From Anthracocystis setariae (Eukaryota; Basidiomycota; Ustilaginomycetes; Ustilaginales; Ustilaginaceae), in the NCBI GenBank assembly GCA_928724745.1, contig CAKMXJ010000037.1, positions 620,001-684,000 of the forward strand: a stretch of DNA of 64,000 bases, read 5' to 3'. Under the pieces are notes generated by a model that had not been told where the DNA came from, ran no database searches, and was given only the letters and a program-made list of their open reading frames with translations. Shown here in pieces: positions 18,054-63,690 of the stretch (position 1 is the first letter of the stretch; the number at the start of each line of letters is the position of its first letter). A program made the translations under genes and the position numbers.

Positions 18054-21000
18054 AAAGCCTGCTGGAAACTCGAACGATATATACTTGAATACTCGATCCC
18101 GCTCTCGAGTCGATTCGATCACCGGAGAACACGAAAACCCCGAAAGAAATTTACCGAACCCGACGACGGGTTCCGAATACACCGAAGAAATCATGCAATC
18201 CATCGACGGGGTCCCGCATAATTCCCCCGGATTGCCGAAATTGACACAGGCACGCGACTATTACCAATGGAAGGACCAATGCATCGACATTCTCATGCAA
18301 AAGGGTGCTCGAATCTATGGAATCATTAAGGGGACTCTACCCCGGCCTGAAGCCTCTGACCCCAAGCACGGAGAGTGGATTAACGCCAACTTTACCGCTT
18401 GCGGCATGCTACGAAGCAGTCTCTCAAGCGAGATCAAACACACTATCGCGGACCTCGAAGACGCGCACACAATCTGGAAAACCCTCGAAGAACGGTTCGC
18501 TAAAGCCATGAAATGGCAACTCGAGGAAATGGAGACGGAGCTCAACAGTCTCAAGCAAGATAGACGAACCATCGACGGATTCGTCAGCCGAATCACCGAA
18601 CTGTCAGACCAGCTGACCATGGCAGGCATTACAATTAGCTTCAACAAGAAGTACAGCGTGCTAATGAAGGGTCTCCGCAAGGAATATGATAACATCCGAG
18701 CACAAATTGAGGAGACCTACCGAGCACGCCGAGAGACAAGCGAAATGATCGTCCGAAGGGGCGACAACGAAGTCGAGACCCTGGTTGTCGAGAGTGCCGT
18801 CATTAACGAGAAGGTAGAGCTCGACAACATCGTTACTCGCCTGCGAAGCGAGGAATTGCGCCTTGGTATCAACGTTCAGGGCATGCACCAGCGAACCCGG
18901 GTCGGGTCATCGGCATACTATGCCGGACAAGAAAACAAACGTAAGGGTCAACGAAACCCGAAGCGAAACCCCAAGACGAAGCCAAAAACGCCAATCGAGA
19001 AGATCACTTGCTTCAATTGTCAAGAAAAGGGACACTATGCGAACAAATGCCCGAAACCCAAGAACCCGACGTCGGGTTCCCAGCCGAACACCAAAACTGG
19101 TGAACCCGGGCGCGATAACGTCTACTCCGCTAGTGAGTTCACACACCCGCGGTCAACAATGTGGTTAATGGACTCGGGTGCCAGTCGACACATCTGTTGT
19201 AACAAGACTCTATTTCGGGATCTTAAACTCGGCGTAACCATGCGACCCATCTGGGTGGCAAACGAAGTTCCGGTCAAAATCGAAGGGCTCGGCACAGTAG
19301 ACCTCGAAGTCAATATCGGACGAGGAAAAACGAACAAGATCACACTGTCGAACGTGGCTTACATACCATCTTTCGGCGTCAACCTCCTCTCCACAGGAGT
19401 GATGAGGAAGAAGGTGGAAATAGTCACAAACGACCGTGAAACCATCGCCCGAACGACAGACGGCAGGATTACATGCAGAGGCGTCCACATTGGACCCCTC
19501 ACGTATGTCGACCAAGTCGGCACCGACTTTGCAGGAATGGCAGCCGAACACGAGGCTAACACCACAAACTGGCACAAACGCCTTGGTCACCCTGGTCAAG
19601 CACGCTTGGAAGAGATTGCGAAGGTCGTTCCCCAAGTAACTCTCAATCCACGCACACCCGCGAAGTGCGAGACGTGCCAGATCGGAAAATCGCATAAACA
19701 GCCGTTTTCTCGAAACCCGACGTCGGGTTCCACAAAACCCCTGGAACTTGTACACACCGACGTCGTGGGTCCGATGCCCGACGAAACTCCTCAAGGTCAC
19801 CGCTACGCTGTCACATTCATCGACGATTTCTCAAGATTCACCGTCGCTTTCCTACTCACGAGGAAGAGTGAGGTATACGGCCACTTCTTGGAATACAAAA
19901 CAACGATGGAGAAACAAACCGGCCAGTCGATCAAAAGAATCAGGTCGGACAATGGAGGCGAGTACACGAGTAAGGAACTAACAGAGCTACTTCGAGGAAA
20001 CGGGATCATCCACGAACACACCGCTCCATACACGCCAGAGCAGAACGGGGTTGCAGAACGAATGAATCGCACCCTGTTTGACTTAGCTCGTTGCATGATG
20101 ATCCAGTCATCCTCACCGTATCATATGTGGGGAGACGCTTTCCTCCACGCGGTCTACCTCAATAACCGATTCCCAACGAAGGGCGCCGGGATGAAGATCC
20201 CGATCCAATTGTTGCGTTCCATTACACCTGACTTCTCCCTCGCTCGAACGTTCGGATGTGCTGCATGGGCACACGTTCCAGAAGAAAGAAGAGATAAATT
20301 GGAGCCCCGTGCACTAGCATGTGTCTACGTCGGCATCGCTGCAGGAACGAAGGCCTTCAAGTTATATAACGTAGCCAAAGATCGATACATTACGACGGTC
20401 CACGCAACATTCGACGAAGGGACTTTCCCCTTCTCGTATGATACCGAAAGTTCAGTGCGGTTTGCAAAACCCGACGTCGGGTTCGCGAACCCGCCCAGAA
20501 TTGACACAACGACGAAGGAAATCAATATTCCCCCTCAGTCAAATGACCAAAATACCGAACTTCGACAAGAAACAAGAGAAAACTTTACTAGCTGGCCTTA
20601 CCTTACTCCCGAAGAGAGAGCGGCAGGGATCCAGACTCCACCTGGATCGCCACCAAGTTCACCACGCCTGGACGCGCTCGCAGCTCTCGAGGAAACCGAC
20701 GGGGTCGAAAACCCGACGTCGGGATTGGACGATTCGGACCCAATCGGGCTACTCGACGACGAACCACGAACAATCACTCAGGCTTTCCGAAGACCCGACT
20801 GGGAATTGTGGAAACAGGCAGTAAATAGAGAACTTGCGTCGCACAAGAACAACAACACCTGGAATCTTGTGACCCCCCCGAAGGACGCAAACGTCATCGG
20901 AAGTCGATGGGTCTTCAAGATTAAGCGAAAAAGCGATGGAACAATTGACAAGTACAAGGCTCGCTTGGTAGCACAAGGATTCGCACAAAAACACGGCATA

Positions 21001-22353
21001 GATTACGACGAGACCTTCGCACCCGTCGTGAAGCTTGCGACACTCCGTCTGCTCATGATACTAAGTCTACAGATTGGATTGACTATCTACCAAATGGATG
21101 TCGAGACCGCCTACCTCAATGGTGAAATCGACAAAGATATATACATGCGACCACCGCCTCGTGAACCCGACGCAGATCCTCACACCCCGGGTCTACTTTG
21201 CAAGCTAAACAAGTCATTGTACGGTCTCAAACAAGCTGGTCGTACTTGGTACCAGAAAGCAGACTCGACTTTGCGGGGAATGGGTTTCAAGCGCAGTAAC
21301 CACGATTCCGCACTCTACATCAAAAACCCGACGTCGGGGTCCGAGACTCACCCGCTCGTCCTCACACTTTACGTGGATGACATTCTTATTTTTGCTCGCT
21401 CTAAACCCCTCGCCGAAAGCGTGATGAACGACCTCAGGAAGCACTTCAAGATGACGGGTGGAGAACAGCTTGACTACATTCTAGGTATTCAAGTAAAGCA
21501 ATCGTCGGACTCCATACACTTGTCCCAAACCAGCTACATCCGACGACTACTTCTCACCTACGGCCTCGAGTCAGCTAACATCGTACACACTCCGCTCAAC
21601 CCGAGTGCCAACATAGCAGAAGGGGACCTCCTCTCCTCATCAGAACATTCCAAATATAGGAGCATGGTCGGCCAAATCCTCTACATTGCGACATGCACGC
21701 GGCCAGACATCAGCTACGCTGTACAGAGACTCAGCCGCGAACTTGCAAATCCGCATTCCAATGCTATGGTTCAAGCGAAGCATCTGCTACGTTACCTCAA
21801 GGGAACAGAAACCCACGGTCTGGAGTATAAACCCGCCGTCGGGTTTCCAACTCACGATGTGAACCTTGATTTCGGATCCCTATTTCAGACATTCACCGAC
21901 GCAGACCACGCGGGGGACACGCTGACTTCGAGATCAACGTCGGGAATTGTTAATACGGTCAACACTATGCCATACAGCTGGATTTCTAAGCTACAGTCCA
22001 TCATCACGGACTCTACGACGTACGCTGAATACGTAGCTATGGCTGAAGCAGCAAAGGAAATTACGTGGTGTCGATGGCTGGTCGAAGAACTCGGCCTGAA
22101 AGTCAAGAACCCGACGCAACTTATGGTGGATAACCGCGCGGCCATCGAACTCGCCAAAGAGCCCAAGTTCCACAACCGCACCAAGCACTTTCGCCTCAAA
22201 TATCACATTACCCGATCATACCAAGCAGAAGGATTACTGATCGTGAAGCCAGTCTCAACAACGAACCAACTGGCTGACATTCTCACTAAGGCATTGGAAA
22301 AGAACAAAGTTCAAGTCAACCGCGAGAATCTCCACATACTTCCCACGAATTAG
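18046..22353 (+). CDS. Copia A Gag-Pol polyprotein
   Basis: 1435 residues in one frame, as in copia elements that do not frameshift. Order: Gag capsid region (about 60-280, with WKDQCIDILMQKG), CCHC knuckle CFNCQEKGHYANKC (322-335), aspartic protease LMDSGAS (Asp376), integrase HHCC zinc region (HKRLGHPG) and DDE core (HTDVVGP, RSDNGGEY, EQNGVAERMNRT), reverse transcriptase with YVDD at 1109-1112, and RNase H starting FTDADHAGD (about 1283). Several inter-domain linkers contain the in-frame palindrome AACCCGACGTCGGGTT, read as NPTSG or KPDVGF. No stop or frameshift is seen. Residue 1434-1435 are ...TN before TAG. The start is fixed by the primer-binding-site ATG, shared by all three copia ORFs here (MSPxPxGNS). 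Confidence 0.95.
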   Translation: MSPKPAGNSNDIYLNTRSRSRVDSITGEHENPERNLPNPTTGSEYTEEIMQSIDGVPHNSPGLPKLTQARDYYQWKDQCIDILMQKGARIYGIIKGTLPRPEASDPKHGEWINANFTACGMLRSSLSSEIKHTIADLEDAHTIWKTLEERFAKAMKWQLEEMETELNSLKQDRRTIDGFVSRITELSDQLTMAGITISFNKKYSVLMKGLRKEYDNIRAQIEETYRARRETSEMIVRRGDNEVETLVVESAVINEKVELDNIVTRLRSEELRLGINVQGMHQRTRVGSSAYYAGQENKRKGQRNPKRNPKTKPKTPIEKITCFNCQEKGHYANKCPKPKNPTSGSQPNTKTGEPGRDNVYSASEFTHPRSTMWLMDSGASRHICCNKTLFRDLKLGVTMRPIWVANEVPVKIEGLGTVDLEVNIGRGKTNKITLSNVAYIPSFGVNLLSTGVMRKKVEIVTNDRETIARTTDGRITCRGVHIGPLTYVDQVGTDFAGMAAEHEANTTNWHKRLGHPGQARLEEIAKVVPQVTLNPRTPAKCETCQIGKSHKQPFSRNPTSGSTKPLELVHTDVVGPMPDETPQGHRYAVTFIDDFSRFTVAFLLTRKSEVYGHFLEYKTTMEKQTGQSIKRIRSDNGGEYTSKELTELLRGNGIIHEHTAPYTPEQNGVAERMNRTLFDLARCMMIQSSSPYHMWGDAFLHAVYLNNRFPTKGAGMKIPIQLLRSITPDFSLARTFGCAAWAHVPEERRDKLEPRALACVYVGIAAGTKAFKLYNVAKDRYITTVHATFDEGTFPFSYDTESSVRFAKPDVGFANPPRIDTTTKEINIPPQSNDQNTELRQETRENFTSWPYLTPEERAAGIQTPPGSPPSSPRLDALAALEETDGVENPTSGLDDSDPIGLLDDEPRTITQAFRRPDWELWKQAVNRELASHKNNNTWNLVTPPKDANVIGSRWVFKIKRKSDGTIDKYKARLVAQGFAQKHGIDYDETFAPVVKLATLRLLMILSLQIGLTIYQMDVETAYLNGEIDKDIYMRPPPREPDADPHTPGLLCKLNKSLYGLKQAGRTWYQKADSTLRGMGFKRSNHDSALYIKNPTSGSETHPLVLTLYVDDILIFARSKPLAESVMNDLRKHFKMTGGEQLDYILGIQVKQSSDSIHLSQTSYIRRLLLTYGLESANIVHTPLNPSANIAEGDLLSSSEHSKYRSMVGQILYIATCTRPDISYAVQRLSRELANPHSNAMVQAKHLLRYLKGTETHGLEYKPAVGFPTHDVNLDFGSLFQTFTDADHAGDTLTSRSTSGIVNTVNTMPYSWISKLQSIITDSTTYAEYVAMAEAAKEITWCRWLVEELGLKVKNPTQLMVDNRAAIELAKEPKFHNRTKHFRLKYHITRSYQAEGLLIVKPVSTTNQLADILTKALEKNKVQVNRENLHILPTN

Positions 22354-22372
22354 GAAAACCCGACGACGGGTT
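18157..22372. repeat. Dispersed family-A palindromes in copia A coding region
   Basis: Copies of AACCCGACGTCGGGTT or one to three changes from it at 18157, 19063, 19714, 20468, 20710, 21325, 21829 and 22357 (starts). Seven lie in frame in Gag-Pol linkers and one just after the stop. More occur in the LTRs (17304, 17919) and near 22579. Confidence 0.85.
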
Positions 22373-22950
22373 TCTCCTTTCATCAATTAATCATCAAGAT
22401 CCGTATATGCACACCCACAACCCGACGCGCTTTCCCTGAAGAAAAAAAAAAAAAAACATCAAAAACAACACAAAATACTTGAACAAGACCAACACAGAAA
22501 ATAATAATAAAAGCCAACAAAATAACTGGACCCTGCATGAACACGCGACCCAAGATACAGTAACACCCTTCGGATCACAGAACCCGACGTCGGGATTCTA
22601 CATTCAGCACGAAACCTCGAAACTCAAGACAGGATAACCAAAACTACAAATAAATTACCGCTAACACCACAGTCACTTATATGTCACATTGCGCAATCAC
22701 ATCCACCGAGATGAAACGCGGCGCATCCGACAGCACTCTCTATCGGGTCATAAGACCCGACGTCTGGCCCTCACTACATGCTGCGCCACTTGCGGAACGA
22801 TCCGAACAAAGCGTTACAATACAACGGGCTTGGATAGAGGCGCGGATCAAAGAAAGAACCCTCAGCACGCCTCCTCACACACTCCACCCTCATACCTCTC
22901 TCACTACCACCGCTACCAACACCAACTCGACCAAAACGCAGCAAGAAACA
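22354..22950 (+). other. Inter-ORF region of copia A
   Basis: Holds AACCCGACGACGGGTT at 22357-22372 and AACCCGACGTCGGGAT near 22579, an A14 run near 22442, and a stretch 22681-22950 that stays open in the frame of ORF2. That stretch is well conserved with copia C over its first 30 codons (MSHCAITSTEMKRGASD) and then diverges before MGKRLS, so it might be coding or hold a promoter for ORF2. Confidence 0.5.
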
Positions 22951-24294
22951 ATGGGCAAAAGACTCTCTAAAGCCAAACGAGATGCTCTGGCCAAGGCCAC
23001 GGAGGCCAGACGCAAGAGGAACGCCAACGCCTACGACGTTAGCAACACCAATTCTACTGCCGTCGCCAACGTCGACACCAATTCGAACGATGCCGACACC
23101 GATGCCTCCCCTCTAGAGGGTCAAGTAGAGGCAATGGAACTCGACGACGAACAGCCCTCTCTGCCAGCAAGCGAGAGCTGCCTTTCCCTCAACATCTTGC
23201 CCCCTGTCAGCAACGACATGGCCGTGGACGACACTCGGAGCAGTCTTGACAGCAGTCAACAACCTGCCAGCCCTCAACCACAGCCCTCTGCCACAAGCGG
23301 CATGGCTCTCTCAACCGAAGAGCCGGCGAGCTCCAACGCCATCATCGCCGATAGGGAAGGCGGTGATATTAACTCCACGACGACCGCGCTCCCCAAAGCC
23401 GGTCACAATCTTCGCCTCCGCAGCCGTCCACTTCCTGCGTTGAGGCCGACCACTTCAACCACCGAGGAAAGAAGCCTCTTCCTCCAATCCGACGACTCCC
23501 TCGCCGACGGCGACTACGAGGACGATCCAACCTTCCGACACGGCGACGAGGACCAAGACAAAGGACGAGGAACGAGCACACGCGCTTGTGTCACCAACGC
23601 CCCCGTCCGGGCCATCGAACTCGTTGAGGCGACCATGGTCCCTCATCGCCAACGAGTTGTCGGCGCCGCCGCCATCGCGGTCGCGGCCTCAGAAGCAAAC
23701 TTCGAGGCCGACGAAGTACAACCCGCCGGTGGATCTATGGAACACCCCCTCCCCTCGCACCTGGCATGGTCGGGGGCTCTCACTCCGGGGGTTCCATTGT
23801 CAAAACAAAAGCGCTTCGTGGTCCCAGCCGGCGTAGTGCTCAATTTACGACGACACTTCGCTCGGCTGGACGAACCTCACCACCCCGACCTCGTGGTCAT
23901 GGAACCAGGCTGCCGAGAGTGCCAACTCATCGGAGTGCACTGCTCATTCGGCGCCGGTGTGAACCATCAAGGGAAGAAACGAGACCCCGCCCGCGGGTCT
24001 TGTGATCACTGTATGATCATCTCGAAGCCCTGCCGAGGGTTGGGGTACGAGGGCAAGAAAACGCAAAAGATTGCCCTCGTCGACAGTCTCCGTGGCAAGC
24101 TCTCCGAAGCCAAGGAGATCTGCATCGACACACTCGTTGCCTCCCGTACAGGGAAACCACCTCCAAAGAAGTGGGATCCCTCGTACTTCATCAAGATCCT
24201 GGGCCAAATCGAAGAGTTTGTCGATAAGCGTGAGGCACCCGGCCCGCGCAATAGGTTTGCTCAAGCATCCGGCTCTGGTACCTCGGGTCCTTAA
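22951..24294 (+). CDS. Copia A accessory ORF2, Zn2Cys6-like cysteine cluster protein
   Basis: 447 residues from MGKRLSKAKRDALAKATEAR. I chose this ATG because copia B has the matching MARLSAKQRASLKKATEAR start; an earlier in-frame ATG at 22681 would add 90 residues. Residues about 1-30 are basic, about 30-250 Ser/Thr/Asp-rich and probably disordered. A conserved block (QPAGG...HPLPxHLAWSG...RFVVPAGVVL, about 250-295) precedes six cysteines: C321-x2-C324-x6-C331-x19-C351-x2-C354-x6-C361. That spacing equals a fungal Zn2Cys6 cluster apart from a longer central linker. A helical tail follows (about 375-430). Copia elements normally have no such gene. Possible roles are DNA binding or regulation; an RNA-binding or envelope role is less likely, as there is no signal peptide or membrane span. 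Function is unknown. Confidence 0.75.
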   Translation: MGKRLSKAKRDALAKATEARRKRNANAYDVSNTNSTAVANVDTNSNDADTDASPLEGQVEAMELDDEQPSLPASESCLSLNILPPVSNDMAVDDTRSSLDSSQQPASPQPQPSATSGMALSTEEPASSNAIIADREGGDINSTTTALPKAGHNLRLRSRPLPALRPTTSTTEERSLFLQSDDSLADGDYEDDPTFRHGDEDQDKGRGTSTRACVTNAPVRAIELVEATMVPHRQRVVGAAAIAVAASEANFEADEVQPAGGSMEHPLPSHLAWSGALTPGVPLSKQKRFVVPAGVVLNLRRHFARLDEPHHPDLVVMEPGCRECQLIGVHCSFGAGVNHQGKKRDPARGSCDHCMIISKPCRGLGYEGKKTQKIALVDSLRGKLSEAKEICIDTLVASRTGKPPPKKWDPSYFIKILGQIEEFVDKREAPGPRNRFAQASGSGTSGP

Positions 24295-24373
24295 GATCCG
24301 TTGCAAATTCCATTACTCCGTTGCAAAATAGTTGACTGTGCCTGATGTTTGTGAAGTGTTCGACGCGGGGGAC

Positions 24374-25173
24374 TGTTGGAACGCAGAGTTCCATACTTTG
24401 TCTCTCACTAAGAACATTTCACCGTCGGGACACAAAACCCGACGTCGGGTTTTATGACCCGAGTGCGGGTTTATACTCTTAGCCGGATTTGGACAACCAC
24501 GACACTTTTCGTGAGAAACCACCCGAAACCCACATATGCGCCCAAGACACACGATTCAAGACAGGAGGTTCGAGACATCGTGTCAAGACCCGCGGTCGGG
24601 TTTTGAGATTCCGGATGCGTCACCTAGGAGAACCCAGAAGTACTCTACCCGACCAAAGTACACACTACACGAAAGCGAGAAAACATCAAACGACCGAACT
24701 AGGAGTTCATGCCGTGGATACGGTAGCATTCATCAAGGGACGCCCAGTACGAATGCTGGGAAGCATCTCCTAGTATGTCTCAACGTGTATATAAGTGCTC
24801 CCTCGTCATGACCCGTCAGCGCTCTTGGAATACATCGAATCTTTCCCCAATTTACTCTTACCATACCTTCTCTCCGACAACTCGTCGAGTAGTCATCAAA
24901 GTACTTATAGTATTTATTGTTCAAGCTTCCTACCTCTGCGAAGACGACGTGAGCGTACGAAACCCGACGTGGATCTTTGGAATAACAACAAAGATAACGT
25001 TCGGATATCCTAAGACTTCCGGGATTCTAACAAAACCCGCAGTTTGTCAGAACCCGACGTCGGGATTGATCACCCGACGCCTACTTCCGTAAGTCGCGCT
25101 CAAAAGCCATAATTAACTACTTATTCTTGGCTTTGCCGTAAGGCCGCCATTTCTCATTTGCTATTCTTTCACA
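24374..25173 (+). repeat. 3' LTR of copia A
   Basis: 800 bp. By eye it differs from the 5' LTR at three sites only (near 24399, 24653 and 24709), each a CpG in the 5' copy changed to TG or CA. Confidence 0.95.
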
Positions 25174-25215
25174 ATATGTTGACCTCCCGGTCACCGGAAT
25201 TCGCGCTCTTTGGCT

Positions 25216-26141
25216 TGTTGGAGCCCGGGGTTCCAAAAGTCATCTCGCACTCAGAGTATCTTGCTCAACAGAGCACCAAATACGCAAGCTTGCATGTTTC
25301 TGTTCAACAACTCAAGATAAGAACCCACAAGGCACGTGCATGTGCGTTAAGGAGGAACAAACTTTAATAATTTCCCAAATATCAAGGGGTAGACCCTCAA
25401 AACACGCTGTTACTGAACAGCCAAGCAATCTGGTGACCATACACGTGAGCTCACGTATTTGACAGCAACACTCCCCTTGATCCCTCACCCATCATCACAG
25501 ACTTGAGGTACAATGGAGGTCATCTTCCGTGACGACAATGGGTAACCCTCAGAATCAAGGGTGAACCCCATTTACGGACCACATTGATCCCAACCAATCA
25601 GAAGAAGGACAACAAACAAGACATACGGTGATGTCCTCAACGAGGAGGAAAGACACGCAAGGATTGCGTGTTTAGCAACAAACACTTGTCAGTCATGGGA
25701 CCTTCTGGAGTAAGGCTATAGCAACAATGGTTGTCACTTAGCCATATACATTTGCTCATGCCATATGTATATATAGAGGTTGCATTCTACTGTGTGGTAA
25801 TCGGAAATCTATCAAATCATCAACCAACAAAGTGTGTTCCTAACATACAACCAAGCACACCAACACGCAGGCTTGCATGTTTGTCTTTCACGTAATAATC
25901 CACCAAGCTTCCTAACCTGCAGCGCCCACCAGGACAAGTGTTGTTATTCTCAGTCTACTTGTGCAGGCTTTGCCGCCAAAGAAGATTAACAACCACTTAG
26001 TGATTACAAACACATCTTCAAGGTCATAACTTGAAGTAAACCAAGGATTGTGGTAAACACGCGGCCTTGCGTGTTCACAATCAAACTCAGACGTCTGCTC
26101 ACCAGGCAATAGTGATCAGACAAACTGTAGATTCTAATACA
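25216..26141 (+). repeat. Solo or residual family-D LTR
   Basis: About 926 bp, TGTTGGAGCC...CTAATACA, colinear with the solo LTR at 49675-50588. TATATATAG at 25768-25776 is its promoter. It has five decayed copies of the ACGC-N6-GCGT palindrome. No target duplication is visible (TGGCT before, GCTGA after), so one flank has been rearranged. The 42 bases between copia A and this LTR match nothing I recognise. Confidence 0.8.
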
Positions 26142-26409: not shown

Positions 26410-27183
26410 ATGCCGCCTTCAATTTGCCAGCGTTACACCATCCAAAGCTACGAGCTGTCTTGCGCACCAAGTGCCGCAATGCAGAGCGCCTTGAACAAAA
26501 TTGCTGCCAAGCATTGCGAGGTCCGTCCGTACAACACAGGACGCTCATACAGCCAACATCAACAAGAGTGGTTCAAGTGGTGTGATGAGCAGAGCGGCGG
26601 CAAATTTGACGGCCACAAGAGGCGAGTTAAGCAAGTCTTGTAGACAGTTGATGACGTATTGCAATGCCTAAAGCCCTATTCTACATCGTCTTAATTGCAG
26701 ATACACCGTTTCCCCGTCCAAGACAGCTTTCTTTGTGGAAGAATACGTACTGAAGAAGCCACGGCTGCGCAGGCCATCCAAGAAGGCAAAGACATCATCT
26801 CATGGTAATGACATGACCTCACCAGTGTTCTCCATTCCTGCTGCGAGTTTGCCTGTGTCCGCCGATAGCACTTACAATACAGTTCTGTCAACCGTTTACC
26901 CCGCCAAACTTGTTGATGAGCAGGAAGGACAGGTTAATGAAGAAAAAGCTCAAGACAACACTGCAGACAACGGGCTCGCCTTAAACACAGTCAAGGCATA
27001 CATAACCGCCATCATTGATCTGTACCATCTACAAAGGTTACAAGGCATCAACAATCACAATCATCCTTGCAAAGGCAAGCTCAAGTATCTGCTCCAGATC
27101 TGACACCTGCAACAAGGCAAGAAGCACAAGGCAATGTACAAGGATTGTGGCGACGGCACTCTGCTTGATGGCATCTCTCACAA

Positions 27184-27391
27184 TGTCATAACCAAGTTAA
27201 GGTTAAGGTTCTGACGTGCAGTGAGCTTGAGCTAAAGTGAGTGATCGATGTCATTTCAATGGAGGCAGTGTGAGTGAGACAAGATTCACAGGGAAAGCGG
27301 AACCAGCAAAAATAGGAGTTAGCCCAATACTGCAAATCGGGCTTGGATTGGCGATCTGGGAAGCGTAATAGGAATGAGACGTCTCATGACA
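27184..27391 (-). repeat. LTR of element H (3' copy)
   Basis: 208 bp, near-identical to 28633-28840. Confidence 0.9.
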
Positions 27392-27520
27392 TTCCCCCCG
27401 CAAAAAAGAGAGCACTCGGACGAGACAAGGAGTGCAAAAAAGTCAGAAACCGGAAAGAAGGATCTCGGAAATGCGGAAATTGGGAAAAAAGGAACTCGGA
27501 TGAACGGAAATTGGAGGAAA

Positions 27521-28492
27521 TTAAGGTGGAGGTTTGTGCACAGACCTCCAAGGTTCCTGTAAAGCACGGAGTTCTTGCAGGAAACCGGAAATTGAGGAAA
27601 CTTCCTGGTACCGTGCAAGAAGCTTGAGTGAATTGGGAAGTCCAAGCCAGATATTGTGGATTGTGTCCCAATCATCATGTGAGTGGTACGCGGCGCGTAA
27701 CAGTGACAGTTTTGCGTAAAAGTAGCACATGATGTCCTCCGTGTGAGGCTGCCATTTCTGCAGTTTGGCGGTCCGACGGGCGACCGAGATATCTGTTCCA
27801 AAAGCGTCGTTGAGCATAATTTGCCAGATTGGCCAAGATTGGCTGAGATCTCACCAATCACAATTGGTGATCAAGCTGTACCAGTGCTGAGCCGTCTTAG
27901 TGAGGCAGAGAGGCAGCTGACTAAGCATTACAGCGACAAAGGAAGGTTTGTGATTCTGAGAATCCAGCAGAGATTCAACTCGTGCGAGAAAGAACTGGAC
28001 TGCATTGCTGGAACCGTCAAAGCAACCAATATTGTCCGGCAACAGGCGGATTTGGTGGTGGGACGGCTTTGGATTGGTGGGGCTGACAGCTGCAGAAGCT
28101 GGAAGGTTAGAGTCTTTGGCGTCATCAGAGTTTGCAGCGTTCTTGGACAGCTTGGAAACGTCAGAAGTAAGGTTTTTGGGTTTGACATTGGCGTTCTTGG
28201 GCGCAGAAGCTTCATTTGATGTCACTAGAAGCTTCAGAAGCTGAGAGAGTGTGTCATTTGTGACCTGTTGCGCAAGTTGAAGCCTGTCAAGAGACGCTGT
28301 GACAGCTTGAAGCGAGTCAGCTAGCGCATCAAAACGCTGTGTTTGCTGCTTTTGCATGTCAAGGAGCTGCATGACAACGTCTGGGGCTGGTTCTGACAGC
28401 TGTCCAGGATTGCCTGGCATGTCGTTTTTGGATTCCAGAGGTGGAAGAACTGTTTCCGGAGGCGTAAGGCGTTGATTGCGGCTTTGGGTCAT
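27521..28492 (-). pseudogene. Gypsy-type Gag with premature stop (element H)
   Basis: From MTQSRNQRLTPPE at 28492. A predicted coiled coil (about 40-80, MQLLDMQKQQTQRFDAL) precedes a retrotransposon-gag domain (GCFDGSSNAVQFFLARVE, then after a stop KLQKWQPHTEDIMCYFYAKLSLLR and IWLGLPNSLK). A TGA at 27851-27853 splits the domain in frame; the context TGG-TGA-GAT suggests a former CGA. No protease or polymerase follows. About 323 codons in total. Confidence 0.7.
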
Positions 28493-28632
28493 GTTTGGCA
28501 GCCGTCAAAAAGCGAGTTTGGTGGGCGTGGTGGGACAAAACTCTCGGAGTCCGTGTAGAACATCTTGTGATTGGTTCCAGGAACGTGGTACAGCTGTTGA
28601 GGTGTGTGTCGAACTCCGCCCTCTTGTCACCA

Positions 28633-28840
28633 TGTCATAACCAAGTTAAGGTTAAGGTTCTGACGTGCAGTGAGCTTGAGCTAAAGTGAGTGATCGATGT
28701 CATTTCAATGGAGGCAGTGTGAGTGAGACAAGATTAACAGGGAAAGCGGAACCAGCAAAAATAGGAGTTAGCCCAATACTGCAAATCGGGCTTGGATCGG
28801 CGATCTGGGAAGCGTAATAGGAATGAGACGTCTCATGACA
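28633..28840 (-). repeat. LTR of element H (5' copy)
   Basis: 208 bp, TGTCAT...ATGACA, partner of 27184-27391. Confidence 0.9.
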
Positions 28841-29212: not shown

Positions 29213-30326
29213 TGTCACAGGCAGAGAAGCCGAGGCGGCGGAAAGCTGGTTTTTCGGCCGCTCTCGGCTCAAGCGCGGTTGAGAGGGCTACAGTCAACCG
29301 CCCTCGCATTCGGGTGAGGGAAGGTACGTGACCAGCAGTGCGCCGAATTTAGTAGTGGCGTTACTCACGGGGGGCAAAGTTGGAGCGGTGGAAAACACGC
29401 TTCTCGGCCGCTCTCGGAGTGAGTGCGGCTAAGAGAGTCTCTTTCAGCCGTTTTCGCCCATAGCGATCGGATTGCGGCAGTTCGACGGCGCAGAGACGCC
29501 GGATCGCGACAAACGCCATCTCGAGGTGATCAGCAGGTGAGGGACAACATCTCGGACGCTCTCGGAGGCTTGGAGGTGATCAGCTGCTTGTACCACGGCT
29601 AGTACATGTGCACACGCGGGCCGTGCAGCTAGACAATAGGCTAGCGCTGGATCGGTCTTGCCATAGGGGCTTGGAGCTGTCATACTTAATGTCTCCTCAC
29701 CTGGCTCGTAGTGGATGAGCTCCTCATCCACTCTACTTCTTACAACACAGTCTCTAAGCTCAGTATAGCTTCTTAACGTCGTCTTCACGATCATTCAGTT
29801 TCTAGTTCAGTAAGTTGCAATACAAGTAGCATTGCAGCTTCCTCGCGTGCCTCCGTTCAAGTCGGAGAACAGCTAGACCTCGTCGGTACCGGTATCGACA
29901 CCGCAGCGCGTAAACGCTGCCTACAGGCTGACATCGGGACGTCAGGCCCTACGCCGTCGCCGTAACAGCTTGGTGATCACTCCCAGTGTTCACCTAATCA
30001 TCTAAACAGCTTCCTGTCTCGTCAAGAGCGCTCGCGGGACACCAAGCTAACACACCGTAATACCGAGTACGCCGTGCTGCCGCTGAACGGAGCGCCAACA
30101 GCGTCAGTCGGTAATAGGTCGAACGCGGTTGAGAGGCCCACACTCCACCGCCGCCGAGTCGAGTGCGGCCCAGTCGCCTTTATCGGACCGCCGACGTATC
30201 TGCGCAACCCACCTCGTACTTCCCAGTTGCACAGGCGCGTAACCCAAACTCGGCGGCCCAGCCCAACAGGACCGCACCGCTCTCGAAACAAGATCGGCCT
30301 ATTTACCAGGCGCCCGACCGCTGACA
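29213..30326 (+). repeat. 5' LTR of element F2
   Basis: 1114 bp, TG...CA. Contains repeated GCCGCTCTCGG and GCGGTTGAGAG-like motifs, and on its minus strand a 116-codon ORF (29444-29794) that recurs in the other F LTRs. Confidence 0.88.
29444..29794 (-). other. LTR-internal ORF, possibly coding
   Basis: 116 codons (MIVKTTLRSYTELRDC...), identical in translation in the other F2 LTR (31296-31646). The drifted F1 copy (32637-32879, plus strand) keeps the frame for 80 codons with a few substitutions, then has TGA where F2 has CGA. No known domain. It may be non-coding LTR sequence. Confidence 0.25.
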
Positions 30327-30918
30327 TTAGAGTGGCCTCGGCCGTGAACCTCACCGGAGAGGTAGGAATCCGGGAAGGAGAGGTGGGGGGCGCGTACAGG
30401 TCCGGCGAGGAGCGTACGTAGATGGGCAAGCGAGGGGGTGAGATCGAACCTCTTGACGATGGCGAGCGCGACGGACCAAGGAACAACGGTACCAGCAAAG
30501 AGCCGACCCCATCAGACGGAATCCGGCTCGGTGGAGGGGTCACGGGGGCTGGCTCAGTGACACCGATAGGGGACGCAATGGCGTCGGACGGAGCAGCAAC
30601 AGCAGATTCAACCACGACGTCGGGCGCGGCAGTCACAGTAGCCACGGCCACGGCGTCCGGCGAGGTAGCAGAGGCAATCTCGGCTCCTCCGTCGGATGAA
30701 ACAGCAGCAGCAACCGCAGCCATGGGGACAGGCACGTCAGCAGTGGCGGCAACGACGGTTACAGCAGGCGTGGTATTACTGGTTGACGCCACCGGGGCAT
30801 CACTGGCGCTGGACGACAAGTTGGAGGCGGAATCGGCATCGGCTGGCGTCTTGGCAAGCCGAGCCGATCGACGCGAGGGAACGGTCGAAGCAGGAGAGGG
30901 TTTCTTCTTGGGCGCCAT
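30022..30918 (-). CDS. Antisense ORF of element F2, probably a truncated accessory protein
   Basis: 298 codons from MAPKKKPSPASTVPSRRSARLA. About 198 residues lie in the interior; the rest reads out through the LTR (29213-30326) and is probably not natural. The N-terminus is basic, then Ala/Val/Ser/Pro-rich and low in complexity. Start position and direction match the antisense accessory gene of gypsy E, whose N-terminus is also basic (MPATRSSTRRG), but the cysteine cluster is absent here. I infer that F2 lost the interior containing it. No enzymatic motif. Confidence 0.45.
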   Translation of the reverse strand: MAPKKKPSPASTVPSRRSARLAKTPADADSASNLSSSASDAPVASTSNTTPAVTVVAATADVPVPMAAVAAAVSSDGGAEIASATSPDAVAVATVTAAPDVVVESAVAAPSDAIASPIGVTEPAPVTPPPSRIPSDGVGSLLVPLFLGPSRSPSSRGSISPPRLPIYVRSSPDLYAPPTSPSRIPTSPVRFTAEATLMSAVGRLVNRPILFRERCGPVGLGRRVWVTRLCNWEVRGGLRRYVGGPIKATGPHSTRRRWSVGLSTAFDLLPTDAVGAPFSGSTAYSVLRCVSLVSRERS

Positions 30919-31064
30919 AGTGCTGATGGCGACGAGGGGGCTGAAAGTGATGATGGTAGTCCTTCAGCCTCATCACTCAGCCGCCGTCAAGCTCACAACG
31001 GCTGGAAGATGCGCAGCCCATTTCATTTCGCCTCGCAGGAGCTCGGGTCTCGGACGGGGGGTAA

Positions 31065-32178
31065 TGTCACAGGCAGAGAAGCCGAGGCGGCGGAAAACTG
31101 GTTTTTCGGCCGCTCTCGGCTCAAGCGCGGTTGAGAGGGCTACAGTCAACCGCCCTCGCATTTGGGTGAGGGAAGGTACGTGACCAGCAGTGCGCCGAAT
31201 TTAGTAGTGGCGTTACTCACGGGGGGCAAAGTTGGAGCGGTGGAAAACACGCTTCTCGGCCGCTCTCGGAGTGAGTGCGGCTAAGAGAGTCTCTTTCAGC
31301 CGTTTTCGCCCATAGCGATCGGATTGCGGCAGTTCGACGGCGCAGAGACGCCGGATCGCGACAAACGCCATCTCGAGGTGATCAGCAGGTGAGGGACAAC
31401 ATCTCGGACGCTCTCGGAGGCTTGGAGGTGATCAGCTGCTTGTACCACGGCTAGTACATGTGCACACGCGGGCCGTGCAGCTAGACAATAGGCTAGCGCT
31501 GGATCGGTCTTGCCATAGGGGCTTGGAGCTGTCATACTTAATGTCTCCTCACCTGGCTCGTAGTGGATGAGCTCCTCATCCACTCTACTTCTTACAACAC
31601 AGTCTCTAAGCTCAGTATAGCTTCTTAACGTCGTCTTCACGATCATTCAGTTTCTAGTTCAGTAAGTTGCAATACAAGTAGCATTGCAGCTTCCTCGCGT
31701 GCCTCCGTTCAAGTCGGAGAACAGCTAGACCTCGTCGGTACCGGTATCGACACCGCAGCGCGTAAACGCTGCCTACACGCTGACACCGGGACGGCAGGCT
31801 CAAAGCCGTTGCCGTGACAGCTTGGTGATCACGCCCAGTGCTCACCTAGATATCTAATTAGCTTCCTGTCTCATCAAGAGCGCTCGCGGGACACCAAGCT
31901 AACACACCGTAATACCGAGTACGCCGTGCTGCCGCTGAACGGAGCGCCAACAGCGTCAGTCGGTAATAGGTCGAACGCGGTTGAGAGGCCCACACTCCAC
32001 CGCCGTCGAGTCGAGTGCGGCCCAGTCGTCGTTATCGGACCGCCGACGTATCTGCGCAACCCACCTCGTACTACCCAGTTGCGCAGGCGCGTAACCCAAA
32101 CTCGGCGGCCCAGCCCAACAGGACCGCACCGCTCTCGAAACAAGATCGGCCTATTTACCAGGCGCCCGACCGCTGACA
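31065..32178 (+). repeat. 3' LTR of element F2
   Basis: 1114 bp, same length as the 5' LTR and nearly identical apart from a cluster of differences around 31775-31870. Confidence 0.88.
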
Positions 32179-34913
32179 CCGTGTTTGTGATACGCGCCTG
32201 TGCAATTGGGAAGTATGAGGTGAGTTGCGCAGGTACGTTGGCGGCCCAATGAGGGCTATTGAGCCGCACTCAATTTGACGGCGGCGGAGTGTGAGTTTCT
32301 TGACCGCGTTTGACCTTTTCCCGACTGACTGCTGTTGGCGCTCCATTCAGAGGAAGCACAGCGTACTCGGTATTACGGCGTGATAGTCTGGTGTCTTGCA
32401 AGCGCTCTTGACAAGACAGAAGACTGATGAGCTGATTAGGTGAACACTGGACGTGATCACCAAGCTGTTACGGTGACAGCTAAGGGCCTGACGTCCCGAC
32501 GTCAGCTTGTAGGCAGCGTTATGTGCTGCAGTGTCAGTACCGGTACTGACGAGGTCTAGCTGTTCTCCGACTTGAACGGAGGCACGCAAGGAAGCTGCAA
32601 TGCTACTGTATTACAACTTACTTTACTAGATACTGAATGATGGTGAAGACGACGTTAAATAGCTATACTGAGCTGAGAGACGGTGTTGTAAGAAGTAGAG
32701 TGGATGAGGAGCTCATCCACTACGAGCCAGGTGAGGAGACATTAAGTATGTCCGCTCCAAGCCCCTATGGCAAGGTCGATCCGGCGCTGGCCTATTGTCT
32801 AGCTGCACGGCCTGCGTGTGCGCATGTACTGACCGCGGCACAAGCAGCTGATCACCTCCAAGCCTCTGAGAGCGCCTGAGATGGTGTCCCTCCTCTGCTG
32901 ATCTCCTCAAGATGGTGTTGTCGCGATCCGGCGTCTCTGCGATGTCAAACGGCCGCAATCCAACCACTATGACCAGAAGCGGTCGAAAGAGACTCTCTGG
33001 GCCGCACTCGCACTGAGAGCGGCTGAAAGGCGTGTTCTCTACCGCTCCACTTATGCCGCCTGGGAGTAACAACACTGCTCAATATGACGCACTGCCGGCA
33101 GCGTACCTCCTCTCCTCCAATGCCAGAGCGGCCAAATTTGATCAACCGCGCTTGGGCTGAAGGCGGCCGTAAAACAAGTTTTCCGCCGCCTCGGCTTCAC
33201 CGCCTGTGACAGCGGCCTTGCCTTCCACCTTTTCAACAAGTTCCACCTCGGCGCTTCTCCACGCATCAACAAGTCGGAGATGATGCAGTTTCCTGACTTC
33301 ACATTGAGCAAGGCTTGGTACAACCTCAAGCTGTTTCCAACATCAAAGTCCGCCACAGAGCCGATGTCGTACCAGGCTCAGCAAAAGGCCTTCAGTGCGG
33401 CCTTTGAGCGTCAGGGCATCCATTTGTCCAAAGTCACCCATCTCATGCGCTCCACAGGTGCAAGGATTGCCGATCTGAATGGCGCTGATACCAAAGACAT
33501 CTGCAGGTCCGGTTGCTGGGCGCAGGGAGCAATAGGGGGTATCAATTTCTGCGGACTTCCGAAAGCACGTGCTTTTGATTTTGCGGACTTTTTTTGGATA
33601 TTGAGCGCCCCACAACTGCTGCGTGCTTTCAGACGTGTTTTTCACTCGATCTGCTCATCTGACCCCGATTGCACTGATCGGCTTGTTGAACTATCGCTCC
33701 TCGTCACCTTGCTTGACTCAATCAACATCTTTTGTACACACATCTGAGCGAACTGATTTGCTTGTTATCATTGCAATGTAGAAGGAATTGAATGCGAAGG
33801 GTTACATGAGAGCTTGGCCTGTGGATGTGACAGAATTGCTGCCCTCGACGTCGTTGTTCTCGTCGTTGTCTTTGTCCTCGTCTTCATCCTCGTCAGAGTT
33901 GTGGCGACGATTAGCTGCTCTTGCTTGCACTGCAGCATATGCAGCAGTGCCCTTTCCATGGCGCCTGGACTCCGGTGTTGAGTCCACCTCCATCCGAGCA
34001 GTTGAATGAAACAGAGCCTGAAACATAGACTCACGAAGATCATGCGCAAGTGCGGTCCTGCGATTTGAGAGAGCATTTTGACTCATGTTGCGAGTATCGA
34101 GGTCGAGCTCTTCCTCGTAGCGCTGCTGGTTAGCACGTCGTATGGCTCTGATTTCGTGTTCTTGGTCTTGCGCTTGCTCTTGATTGGTACATTCTGCTCG
34201 CTCAAACTGCTGAGCAGCGTCCTCGGTCACAGCCAGGAGTTCAGCAAGGTTGTCAGGCTGATCATATTGACTGGCAAATGTGTGAGCGATGATACAAGCC
34301 TGCATCGTCTTTGCTGCTGTGTTGAGGTCTTGAACTCGATAGATGTTTCCGCGGTAGTCCTTCAGGCATTGAAATCGGTTCTTCAGGTATGCGATTGCGT
34401 TCTCAACTCGGCCTCTCACCCTTGAAAGGCTGGCGTTGAAGTGCTTGAGGTCGCGGCTCTTGTCGGCTTGGATATGGTGGAATGGTCCTACGGTGAAAGG
34501 CGAAAAGCCGTATCCACCATCAACCCAGATAAACTCACCTTTGTCAAGATAAAGACGGGGTTTCTTTAAGATGTTGCTTCCAGAGGTCCATACTCGTGAA
34601 TCTTGAACGCTACCAGGCTGACCAACAACAGACTCGACAATGCGCAGTGAGTGTGGCATGATAACCAAAGCAACGTTGATTGAGAAGATTCCCTTGTAGC
34701 TGTAGTGCTCCTTGGACATCAGGCCTGGTCGAAATGCAAGCTTGAAGTGTGTTCCATCCACAACAAGCCATCCTTTTCCCCACTCTTCAACACCGGACGT
34801 CCTGCGAACCCAAGCTGCAGCCTTCTGTCGTTCCTCCTCACTGGCAAATCGCATGACTTCTCTATTGAGTTGGTTGAGCCCGTCGACGGTGACAACGGAG
34901 ACAGAGGCAAGCT

Positions 34914-35833
34914 TGTTGGATCACATAGATCCGAAAGTCATCTCATACTTAGAGTATTTTACTTAACGGCACTAAACACGCAGGCCCGCGTGTTTGAACG
35001 CAAGGGGTAAAGAACCGAAATAGCACGCGCGCGAAATAATAGGGAATAATATTCGAACCCCACTTCAGGAAGAAGGGTAAACCCTGGTTCCGCGCCGTCG
35101 TGGACATCAAGACTAGCTGGACACCTCACACGCGTGGTTGCGTGTTAAATATACAGCTCCTCGCGATCACCTACTCGACGAACCAATCAGCTCAAGTTGG
35201 GGTTATGATACGAACAAGACTCAAGGGTCATAATGGGTCACCCTCATAATCAAGGGTGAACCCCATTTGCGGACGACGTTGCCCCGAACGAATCAGAGGT
35301 AAGCTGCTAGTAGACCGTTAGGGAATAGTCCCGGAATGGCGAGGACACACGCAAGACCGCGTGTATAGAAGCACAAATCTCAGTCGACATGGGACGTTAT
35401 GAAGTACGGCTACAGCGACAAGAGATGTCACTTTGCCGTATTTGAGAATCAGCGCCACATGTATATATAGAGGCCGCAAGACACCCTACAGGGATTGTAA
35501 TATCATCGAATCATCAACTAACTAAGTGTGTTCCTAACACCTAACCAAGTACACCAACACGCAGGCTTGCGTGTTTGCCTCTCACGTGGTAACCTACCAA
35601 GCTTCCTAGCCTACAGCGCCCACTCGGACAAGTGCGGCTAACCTCGCTTCGCTCTTGTTGGCTTTATCGCCGAAAAGGGTTGACAATTAACTTAGTGATC
35701 CCAAACACACTTCCAAGACCGCTACTTGAAGTGAATCAAGGGACGCGGTGAACACGCGCCCTTGCGTGTCTGCAATCACACTCGAACGTCTACCCACCAC
35801 GCTACAGTGATTAGACGCACGTAGAATCTCACA
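34914..35833 (+). repeat. 5' LTR of copia B
   Basis: 920 bp with TATATATAG about 375 bases before its end and five palindromes of the type ACACGC-N-GCGTGT (near 34975, 35128, 35344, 35553, 35751). Related in its 3' half to family-D LTRs. Confidence 0.95.
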
Positions 35834-35845
35834 GGTTATGAGCCC
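35834..35845 (+). other. Primer-binding site of copia B
   Basis: GGTTATGAGCCC, same as in copia A and C, with the gag-pol ATG inside (35838). Confidence 0.8.
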
Positions 35846-38800: not shown

Positions 38801-40124
38801 GCGATTACTCATGATCATCTCATTACAAATGGGATGGAGTATCTACCAAATGGACGTGGCCACAGCCTACTTAAACGGGGAGATCGACGTAGACTTATAC
38901 ATGAGGCCACCCCCCACGGTCGAAGAGTCTCGAGGGACCCCGCAAGGTCAAGTGTGCAAGCTAAATAAGTCGCTTTATGGACTTAAGCAGGCAGGTCGAA
39001 CATGGTACCACAAGGCCGACACCACGCTCCGAGAAATGGGATTTAAGCGCAGTGAACACGACTCCGCCCTCTACTTCAAACACGCGGGCCCGCGTGTTGA
39101 AGATCAACCCATCATCTTAACCCTGTACGTCGACGACATCTTAATCTTCGCCAAAACACACGAGTTGGCGAAGAGTGTTATGGATGAACTCCGAAAGCAC
39201 TTCAAAATGACTGGCGGAGACCCGCTCGACTACATCCTGGGAATCCAAGTCACCCAGTCTCCACAGTCTATACACCTTGCCCAAACCAGTTACATACACC
39301 GTCTACTGGAAACCTACGGCCTTGCGTGTGCAAACATAACGCATACACCCATCAATCCAACTCACGATCTCAAAGGAGGAGATCCTCTTTCACCTACAGA
39401 GCACTCCACCTACCGAAGCCTCGTCGGCCAGGTCCTTTACATTGCAACATGCACACGCCCCGACATTGCTTATGCCGTCCAGAAACTCAGCCGTGAGCTT
39501 TCCCGACCGCACCACAACGCCATGGTGCAGGCCAAACATTTACTCCGATACCTCAAAGGGACCGCCTCACACGGACTACGTTACACACGCATAGCTGACC
39601 TCACACCCGCAACCTCGCGTGTTGACCTTGGACAGTATTTGCAGACATACACCGACGCAGATCACGCGGGGGACACTATTACTTCGCGATCAACTTCGGG
39701 GATTGTTAACACCGTCGCAGGAATGCCATACAGCTGGTTATCAAAACTTCAGTCCATCATCACAGACTCAACGACCTATGCCGAGTACGTAGCCATGGCC
39801 GAAGCTGCAAAGGAGATCATCTGGACACGCTGGATCGCATCCGAAATGGGACTCAAAGTTGACACACCCACACAGCTCATGGTCGACAACCGAGCAGCAA
39901 TCGAACTCGCAAAAGAGTCAAGATTCCACAATCGAACTAAACACTTCAGGCTTAAGTATCACATTACACGAGAATATCAAGCTAACAATGTCTTGACGGT
40001 GAAAGCCGTGTCCACTAGCGACCAATTGGCCGATATGCTAATGAAAGCTTTGGAGAAGAACAAGACTCAGGCAAACCGCGAAGCATTAAACATCAAAACT
40101 CCGACAAACAACGTTGTGGAGTAA
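35838..40124 (+). CDS. Copia B Gag-Pol polyprotein
   Basis: 1428 residues, uninterrupted. Same domain order as copia A and alignable along its whole length: Gag, CCHC knuckle CFNCNEKGHYQNKC (322-335), protease LMDSGAS, integrase (HKRLGHPG, HTDVKGP, RSDNGGEY), reverse transcriptase with YVDD (1097-1100) and RNase H (YTDADHAGD). The linkers that hold NPTSG in copia A hold HATPRVE, HATLRVD or HAGPRVE here, encoded by family-B palindromes such as the perfect 20-mer at 39079-39098. Sequence divergence from copia A is large enough to call a separate family. Confidence 0.95.
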   Translation: MSPRPTGNSEGSYKGTRSRTRRSDSITGTPSRDDEESTLSLTPPPTVQTRNVAFTMGTEIDQTKLRLPKLEQAKDYYMWKDRTIDVLMQKGIRVYGIIKGIFPKPPESDPTYLEWLNANLTACGMLRSCMSIDIKHTISDLEDARTIWITLEDRFAKSMRWQLEEMETEFNSLRQEKRTIDGFVGRIKQLAEQLTLAGYNISHHKKYSVLMKGLRKEYENIASQIMETYRARREQTQMIIHREGDENERFTMAKAHIDEKVEFDSIVTRLRGEELRLGLHSHGLDQQTKQNQSAYFASDGKKTKRPNTQRRRKRTPIEEITCFNCNEKGHYQNKCPKKTKQENTQGCVKDGNVNNENAYSVSEFTHPRSTMWLMDSGASRHICCNRSLFTDLRTGVSMKPIWVANDVPVQVEGVGTVHLDVNVGQGDVNKIMLTNVAYIPSFNVNLLSTGVMRKKAEITTNDKETIARTKSGRITCRGVHIGPLTYVDQAGIDFAGLAAEHKEPDRWHKRLGHPGERRLEEIAKEVPTVTLSAKKNRQLCETCEIAKSHKQPFKHATPRVEHPLGLIHTDVKGPIPTETPQGYKYAVTFIDDFSRHTMVYLITRKSEVFGCLQEYKTTMEKQTRYPLKKLRSDNGGEYTSMEMDTFLTSHGILHEFTSPFAPEQNGVAERMNRTLFNTVRCLLIQSHAPDTLWGDALLHATYLNNRLPTKGNGDKIPIKVLYDKMPDLSLVRTFGCAAYAHIPTERRSALDDRAVSCVYLGIAAGTKAYKLYDPVEKRYLTQVHATFDEESFPYKGSPEKQLGLPTRDVWSSEQQPAPLTQASNQGNDEGNDGSLSRWPYLTEQEREQGLTTPPGSPPTSPRLQALAIQEFNDELEHATLRVDEPDSVGLLDDEPRTIMQASQRPDWSLWKEAIDKELNSHSENDTWRLVTPPNGANIIGSRWVFKVKRKSDGSIDKYKARLVAQGFAQKHGIDYDETFAPVVKLSTLRLLMIISLQMGWSIYQMDVATAYLNGEIDVDLYMRPPPTVEESRGTPQGQVCKLNKSLYGLKQAGRTWYHKADTTLREMGFKRSEHDSALYFKHAGPRVEDQPIILTLYVDDILIFAKTHELAKSVMDELRKHFKMTGGDPLDYILGIQVTQSPQSIHLAQTSYIHRLLETYGLACANITHTPINPTHDLKGGDPLSPTEHSTYRSLVGQVLYIATCTRPDIAYAVQKLSRELSRPHHNAMVQAKHLLRYLKGTASHGLRYTRIADLTPATSRVDLGQYLQTYTDADHAGDTITSRSTSGIVNTVAGMPYSWLSKLQSIITDSTTYAEYVAMAEAAKEIIWTRWIASEMGLKVDTPTQLMVDNRAAIELAKESRFHNRTKHFRLKYHITREYQANNVLTVKAVSTSDQLADMLMKALEKNKTQANREALNIKTPTNNVVE

Positions 40125-40142
40125 CACTCGACGTCGCGTATT
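35981..40142. repeat. Dispersed family-B palindromes in copia B coding region
   Basis: Palindromes of the type AACACGC-N6-GCGTGTT, more or less decayed, start at 35981, 36864, 37500, 38252, 38466, 39079, 39605 and 40123. Each is at the place that aligns with a family-A palindrome in copia A. The one at 39079-39098 is a perfect 20-mer. Confidence 0.82.
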
Positions 40143-63672: not shown

Positions 63673-63690
63673 GGTGATGGATGGCGACAA

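Follow-up and report, generated by a model that had tools for sequence, protein, structure and literature searches.

Several copia-type families of long terminal repeat (LTR) retrotransposons in the smut fungus Anthracocystis setariae carry short palindromic DNA words that are private to each family and recur at corresponding places along the Gag-Pol polyprotein. They are described here from a 64,000-nucleotide stretch of contig CAKMXJ010000037.1 (positions 620,001 to 684,000; hereafter the window), which contains elements of two families, copia A and copia B. Downstream of Gag-Pol, both families have a second open reading frame (ORF2) with a six-cysteine cluster. Judged from its sequence, ORF2 probably encodes a DNA-binding protein that acts as a dimer and reads the dyads. 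This would give each family a private form of self-recognition, most likely serving a derepression like that brought about by the VANC proteins of plant transposons.

All results concern one genome (21.5 Mb, 36 contigs). The element set comprises ten copia elements covered from LTR to LTR, three in the window and seven elsewhere in the genome, and additionally L040 and L041, both without paired LTRs; the site analysis covers these elements. Membership of the copia group is indicated by Retrotran_gag_2, zf-CCHC, rve and RVT_2 (Pfam) in copia order within one ORF between LTRs. The LTR pairs measure 800 bp in copia A and 920 bp in copia B, that of A being a 99.6% identical direct repeat.

Each Family Carries Its Own Word

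The copia A word is the 16-mer AACCCGACGTCGGGTT, which is found at seven places in Gag-Pol with at most one mismatch. At the same threshold it also stands at 22357 and 22581 and, within the LTRs, at 17304, 17919, 24436 and 25051. The copia B word, AACACGC-N6-GCGTGTT, occurs at seven places in Gag-Pol, including one half-site, as well as at a weak extra site, at the stop codon, at 40276 and five times in each LTR. A third family, C, has its own word, CAACAYT-N8-ARTGTTG. No A word was found in copia B at up to three mismatches (motif scan). Sites in A are spaced about 0.2–0.9 kb apart over the LTRs, Gag-Pol and the ORF2 leader, with a single 1.9 kb gap over ORF2. At up to three mismatches, no site lies between 22597 and the 3' LTR in A or between 40296 and the 3' LTR in B; A2, a second A copy on the opposite strand, has one three-mismatch site at 53541, close to the start of its ORF2 frame.

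An earlier sequence-only reading of the window had named 16 motif places, and all 16 bear the motif of their family at up to three mismatches in the motif scan. Most of its coordinates hold as well; for three B sites the start is 37498, 38464 and 39604 rather than 37500, 38466 and 39605, and one A site starts at 21830 rather than 21829. At 38252 the B site retains its left half-site, the right arm being broken. Of the two motifs placed just after the stop, that of A at 22357 does lie there, 4 nt past the stop codon, and that of B at 40123 overlaps the stop. The six-cysteine ORF2, family C, the LTR sites and the gypsy parallel were not mentioned in that reading.

The first LTR site lies at +63 in A, +62 in B and +64 in C, and at +62 to +66 across the A, B and C elements scanned. 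The LTRs of A, B and C give no BLAST match among one another, and a multiple alignment of LTRs this dissimilar could be steered by the words themselves. The B and C words both have the form AACA...TGTT, in which AAC and GTT are separated by 14 bases; in the A word, of the form AAC...GTT, they are separated by 10. Genome-wide, at up to two mismatches, the words outnumber their reversed controls (255 versus 13 for A, 337 versus 75 for B, and 549 versus 92 for C).

Words of this kind extend to further families. Own-family words per kb number 3.5 in A, 2.3 in B, 2.6 in C, 2.4 in E (ACCGAC), 14.7 in F1 (TGCGCA), 4.7 in F3 (CGAWGTC) and 5.2–6.7 in gypsy (CCCGGGA). In foreign families they occur at about 1.2 per kb or less, except for the F3 word in F5 (L041, possibly a relative; 2.7 per kb) and a second word of E, CGACGTC, in A. 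The words are family-private for A, B, C, F1, F3 and gypsy, and less sharply so for E. F1 (L037 747-5236; L040 ~1500-5000) is a 4.5 kb copia element with 65 TGCGCA and 228 TGCGC over both strands, the densest word among the families examined, and its TGCGC saturation stops sharply near the LTRs. The gypsy element has a chromodomain, is rich in CCCGGGA/CCGGGAC and carries an antisense cysteine-cluster ORF; its two parts (44600-49970 and 59000-61500) would be one element split by copia A2. Family words are not enriched in the two host stretches of the window (within 1-16000). Host stretches too have 7-mers above the Markov null, which in these two are simple repeats. A fourth, putative host stretch consists of flank pieces of L033-L035 and is rich in simple repeats, and the control ORFs at 45581, 48086 and 59034 lie in the gypsy element and so are not host controls.

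Sites Occupy Homologous Positions

The proposal that palindromes stand in homologous columns is borne out by aligning the A, A2, B, B2, C1 and E proteins. Four of the eight B sites fall exactly on the column of an A site (random mean 0.04, p<=5e-5; reached in 0 of 1427 shifts), and seven of eight lie at most six columns away (random mean 0.46; seven is reached in 5 of 1427 shifts). Columns 663, 925, 1021 and 1229 are common to A and B; at the other three A sites the B site is 3, 5 or 6 columns off, and the weak B site (column 786) has no partner. The C word stands at columns 663, 1021 and 1229, where the A, B and C sites do not differ in codon phase, and column 1404 is common to C and B. Within two columns, A and C1 agree at 3/8 sites (p 5e-4) and B and C1 at 4/8 (p 5e-5), and the C matches at 391, 947, 1391 and 1439 (three mismatches) have no A or B site within that distance. 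The Gag-Pol sequences of E, F2 and F3 contain no A, B or C word in the motif scan. Stray Gag-Pol matches amount to one C-like match in F1 and one B-like match each in A, A2, C1 and C2. At up to three mismatches the C pattern is also found four times in B and six times in B2, because the B and C words have ends in common.

Site counts were compared with 200 synonymous-codon shuffles per Gag-Pol. At up to one mismatch, A has 7 sites against a shuffle mean of 0.14 (maximum 1), and A2 has 6 against 0.14 (maximum 2). In B there are 4 against 0.59 (maximum 2) at up to two mismatches and 8 against 1.90 (maximum 4) at up to three; the two counts are 5 against 0.67 (maximum 3) and 8 against 1.88 (maximum 5) in B2, 4 against 1.08 (maximum 4) and 8 against 2.85 (maximum 6) in C1, and 3 against 0.43 (maximum 2) and 4 against 1.69 (maximum 5) in the shorter frame of C2. 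By count alone, the enrichment is clear for A and B and weak for C. The consensus words were picked after inspection of the sequence and the shuffle excess is therefore inflated; the homologous positioning is independent of that choice. The expectation that palindromes would outnumber those in shuffled codons holds for the family words of A and B, and palindromes as a class are not clearly enriched: all-palindrome counts exceed the shuffle maximum in A (23 versus 22), B2 (22 versus 20), F2 (25 versus 23) and F1 (48 versus 28), and lie within or at the shuffle range in the other eight sequences tested. A general excess of palindromes is unsupported for most elements.

Evidence for a DNA Word Rather Than a Peptide or an RNA Hairpin

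The earlier inference that the DNA motif, not the peptide, is selected is supported by reading frames, non-coding sites, shuffles and the conservation between A and A2. One word read in several frames yields different peptides, namely NPTSGS, KPDVGF and KPAVGF for A and HATLRV, TRNVAF and TRDVWS for B, and LTRs, the stop codon and non-coding DNA bear the word as well. When A is compared with A2, the word differs at 1/112 nt versus 280/4193 in the remaining Gag-Pol (p 0.01). The comparison of B with B2 has the same direction (6/98 versus 489/4186) and is not significant (p 0.11).

A repeated peptide, for example a protease cleavage site between polyprotein domains, would suit the several sites that lie close to domain borders. 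The probability of this reading is practically nil: it is ruled out by the diversity of frames and by the sites in the LTRs and past the stop, and the site at 21325 falls within the reverse transcriptase (RT) match. It is very improbable, too, that the dyads are hairpins of the genomic RNA that serve as signals for packaging, dimerisation or reverse transcription. Inspection suggests that stems of 7-9 bp, closed by loops of 4-6 nt, could form from the B and C words. Arm mismatches are nevertheless not of the G-U type: in six related, non-independent elements, 14 are GT, 30 AC and 49 other, with no excess of G-U over A-C, and RNA pairing is disfavoured. The intact half-site retained by the B site at 38252 is likewise what would be expected for protein half-sites.

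ORF2 and Its Six-Cysteine Domain

ORF2 of copia A comprises a basic stretch, a low-complexity N-terminal part, a six-cysteine domain and two predicted helices. The cluster pattern in A, B and C is C-x2-C-x6-C-x19-C-x2-C-x6-C. It resembles that of fungal Zn2Cys6 proteins (Gal4-type, PF00172), in which C-x2-C-x6-C ... C-x2-C-x6-C is also followed by helices, and a domain of this kind would be expected to bind zinc. Zn2Cys6 regulators commonly bind CGG-triplet dyads as dimers, and the gap between their third and fourth cysteines is usually about 5-12 residues. In this the ORF2 domain differs, with 19 residues in A, B and C, and its Pfam score is well below the cut-off. The helical hairpin that follows the cysteines is predicted with a block pLDDT (the confidence score of the structure model) of 74-88.

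Of the 180 window frames with 100 or more amino acids, 5 have the six-cysteine pattern, all five being retrotransposon accessory ORFs (one antisense in gypsy); 20 shuffles of each window frame gave none. Nine of the ten copia elements have a six-cysteine ORF: A, A2, B, B2, C1, C2, E and F3, with two C-x2-C-x6-C halves, and F2, which like gypsy has a longer first loop. Over the 41-residue cluster, differences within families number 3 (A/A2), 9 (B/B2) and 6 (C1/C2), and between A, B and C they number 20-25. The ratio of nonsynonymous to synonymous divergence (dN/dS) in the C-terminal part of ORF2 is 0.089 (A/A2), 0.061 (C1/C2) and 0.096 (B'/B2, with synonymous sites near saturation), similar values in Gag-Pol being 0.065 (A/A2) and 0.063 (B/B2); in the N-terminal part it is 0.30 (A/A2) and 0.55 (C1/C2). 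These ratios point to strong purifying selection on the C-terminal part and less on the N-terminal part.

Identity in the C-terminal part is 47% for B2/C1, 41% for A/B2 and A/C1, and 34-38% between E and the others. The kinship of the words seems to parallel that of ORF2, the closest ORF2 pair, B and C, being also the most alike in word, an agreement among few families of shared descent that is suggestive rather than statistical. Among A copies, full-length RT is 97-100% alike, and the ORF2 of the other full-length A copies is 63-76% alike. Synonymous divergence between A and A2 is 1.1 in ORF2 versus 0.27 in Gag-Pol, about fourfold (18046-24294 versus 52013-58251), which indicates that the two genes have different histories, and exchange of modules between elements is likely behind them. 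ORF2 of A has 63 matches in the genome, in several groups, and RT has 80.

Proposed Role of ORF2 and Alternatives

A dyad word calls for a dimeric reader. Since the words are family-specific and ORF2 is the sole family-specific protein here with the look of a DNA-binding protein, ORF2 is the simplest candidate. It is probable that the ORF2 protein coats copies of its own family only, via the sites across the LTRs, Gag-Pol and the ORF2 leader, and that the helices after the six-cysteine domain serve dimerisation. Binding would then most likely open or activate these copies against host silencing by RNA interference and DNA methylation, as VANC does for VANDAL elements. If a reader changed its specificity, the sites would change as a set, staying where the element tolerates them. 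A silencing system to counter may exist, as the genome has domain matches for Argonaute (1), RNA-dependent RNA polymerase (3) and C5-DNA-methylase (4, two of them possibly one gene). As the outcome of the putative binding, countering silencing would be the first choice and self-activation of transcription the second.

A possible, if doubtful, alternative is that ORF2 binds the dyads as an ordinary transcriptional regulator, either an activator or a copy-number repressor, acting through LTR sites and internal enhancer sites and having no role in silencing. Both the first LTR site at +62 to +66 and the site some 85 bp ahead of the ORF2 frame in A would fit, and the copia elements Ty1 and Ty2 have internal enhancers; the spread of sites at conserved columns throughout 4.3 kb of coding sequence nevertheless exceeds the needs of a promoter. 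The words might instead be read by a host DNA-binding protein, through hijacking of an enhancer or as marks for a silencer, ORF2 having another job. This is unlikely, even though F1 has a dense word without an ORF2 and CCGACGTCGG has a GACGTC core resembling that of bZIP sites: a separate host protein would be needed for each family, the host stretches of the window lack word enrichment, and word differences accompany ORF2 differences.

It is less likely still that ORF2 serves to tether the integration complex to family copies already present, leading to nested, low-harm insertion. The elements in the window are nested, and another copia RT lies within 30 kb of 5/8 B and 8/18 A copies. This clustering, however, is not clearly above that of E (6/16) or F3 (3/10), 2/18 A copies have an A neighbour, and copia A in the window sits in a B-type LTR rather than in an A copy. 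The test, which used 76 of 80 RT rows (4 fragments or remote rows excluded) with families assigned by identity band, is not decisive for self-targeted integration.

Several results weigh against ORF2 as a self-encoded reader. The F1 element has no ORF2 despite having the densest word, and its top 7-mer is not above the second-order Markov null (48 versus a median of 49); conversely, F2 has a cysteine ORF and no enriched word. The F3 word in Gag-Pol does not exceed the synonymous-shuffle null (z 6.1 versus a null maximum of 8.0), although over the whole element it exceeds the null (18 versus a Markov maximum of 10). For C1 and C2, the top 7-mer is borderline against the Markov null (12 versus 11 and 11 versus 12). 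The word of E is not fully private, with CGACGTC at 2.7 per kb in A versus 2.1 in E, a frequency explained by the presence of CGACGTC within the A word. The cysteine region is poorly modelled (block pLDDT 42-49), with a short helix beginning at each C-x2-C, and Foldseek with the ORF2 model gave nothing at E<=0.001. The Pfam Zn_clus model (PF00172) matched 4 of 9 ORFs, with a best score of 11.2 bits versus a cut-off of 21. Searches of PDB sequences with the ORF2 domain profile gave no match at E<=10, and with the F3 ORF gave three weak matches, none by name kin of a cysteine cluster. No homologues were found in the protein collection (7996 and 791 candidates scored) or in viral contigs. As these searches gave no relatives outside this genome, co-evolution is judged on a handful of families with one history.

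A broader proposition is that fungal LTR retrotransposons, copia and gypsy alike, share a general strategy of self-recognition in which a private word in coding sequence and a cysteine-cluster reader are replaced together, with site sets at fixed protein positions switching between families. Selection on the word would then shape the amino acids of the polyprotein itself. The chances of this proposition being right are about even.

Comparison With Known Systems

Binding and anti-silencing have been demonstrated for VANC of the VANDAL elements, MULE DNA transposons of Arabidopsis (PMC5735166; PMC10398659). As in that system, the elements described here encode a candidate accessory protein, have a short family-specific motif that is dense in their own family and rare in other transposable elements, and differ between families in protein and motif jointly (PMC5735166; PMC10398659). 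VANDAL elements are DNA transposons, whereas those of the window are LTR retrotransposons with a cysteine-cluster protein. The VANC motifs are described as mainly non-coding tandem repeats in one orientation; here, single dyads occupy fixed places, many of them coding (seven in A Gag-Pol). A dense family-private motif is thus shared with the VANC type (only partly in E), and a motif in non-coding tandem repeats is not.

Plant Sireviruses are likewise Ty1/copia elements with an extra gene and a symmetric repeated motif in the LTRs and upstream of that gene (PMC2829016). Their motif is a symmetric CGG-CCG, and the A word similarly has a CCG/CGG core. Sirevirus motifs are described in non-coding regions, unlike the dyads, which also lie inside Gag-Pol; the extra gene there is ENV, and the passages on it give no self-encoded reader (PMC2829016). 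Additional ORFs, some antisense as in the gypsy element of the window, are also known from plant LTR retrotransposons (PMC7264820), and the available text of that source lacks the terms "DNA-binding", "zinc", "motif" and "transcription factor". Titles and abstract openings in the literature listings gave no such pair of word and ORF in fungal LTR elements, and "motif" and "palindrom" are absent from the main text, as available, of a study of smut LTR elements (PMC9603552).

Plant DNA transposons are known to regulate themselves specifically, through a protein of their own and its motif. The same logic seems to operate in the LTR retrotransposons described here, whose sites are superimposed on coding sequence at columns that correspond between families. 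They may preserve a record of a protein and about 15 sites changing together. The several related protein-word pairs could be used to decode the divergent cysteine-cluster domain, and private recognition might explain how retrotransposon families that are closely related remain separate.

Genomic Setting

Table 1. Elements and sites in the window (window coordinates).
Feature	Position	Strand	Sites and basis
Copia A 5' LTR	17242..18041	+	Motif 17304 (perfect), 17455 (3 mismatches), 17919 (1 mismatch); direct repeat, motif scan
Copia A Gag-Pol, 1435 amino acids	18046..22353	+	Motif 18157, 19063, 19714, 20468, 20710, 21325, 21830; Pfam, scans, shuffles
A motif 3' of Gag-Pol stop	22357..22372	.	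Motif scan
A motif ~85 bp upstream of ORF2 frame	22581-22596	.	Motif scan
Copia A ORF2, 537 amino acids	22681..24294	+	Six-cysteine cluster from 23911; predicted helical hairpin
Copia A 3' LTR	24374..25173	+	Motif 24436, 24587 (weak), 25051; direct repeat, motif scan
Copia B 5' LTR	34914..35833	+	Dyad 34975, 35127, 35346, 35556, 35751; direct repeat, motif scan
Copia B Gag-Pol, 1428 amino acids	35838..40124	+	Dyad 35981, 36864, 37498, 38252 (half-site), 38464, 39079, 39604; weak 37866
B dyad across Gag-Pol stop	40123..40142	.	Motif scan
Further B dyad, 2 mismatches	40276-40295	.	Motif scan
Copia B ORF2 frame	40142..41497	+	Six-cysteine cluster from 41348; stop codon soon after domain truncates copy
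Copia B 3' LTR	41803..42722	+	Dyad 41864, 42016, 42235, 42445, 42640; direct repeat, motif scan
Gypsy accessory ORF, 622 amino acids	45866..47734	+	Antisense to gypsy pol; C-x2-C-x10-C-x22-C-x2-C-x6-C
Copia A2 ORF2, 538 amino acids	52013..53629	-	Cluster from 52396 downward
Copia A2 Gag-Pol	53944..58251	-	Same motif (<=2 mismatches) at the 7 codon positions of A
ORF2 of second B copy	62497..63690	-	Six-cysteine domain complete; continues beyond the stop of the first B; copy extends past window end

Copia A is nested in a B-related LTR (17070-17241 and 25215-26135). More B-related LTR pieces lie at 49674-50591, and variant dyads of the form AATACGC...GCGTGTT are found in such nearby pieces. An ORF for a DDE_Tnp_4 transposase (33802-34854) adjoins copia B, with direct and inverted repeats (27178-33120) to its left. 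Of the 18 RT matches of A type, five are no more than 8 kb from the first base of their contig (contigs C6, C8, C15, C11 and C26), which may reflect either a subtelomeric location or breaking of the assembly at A copies.

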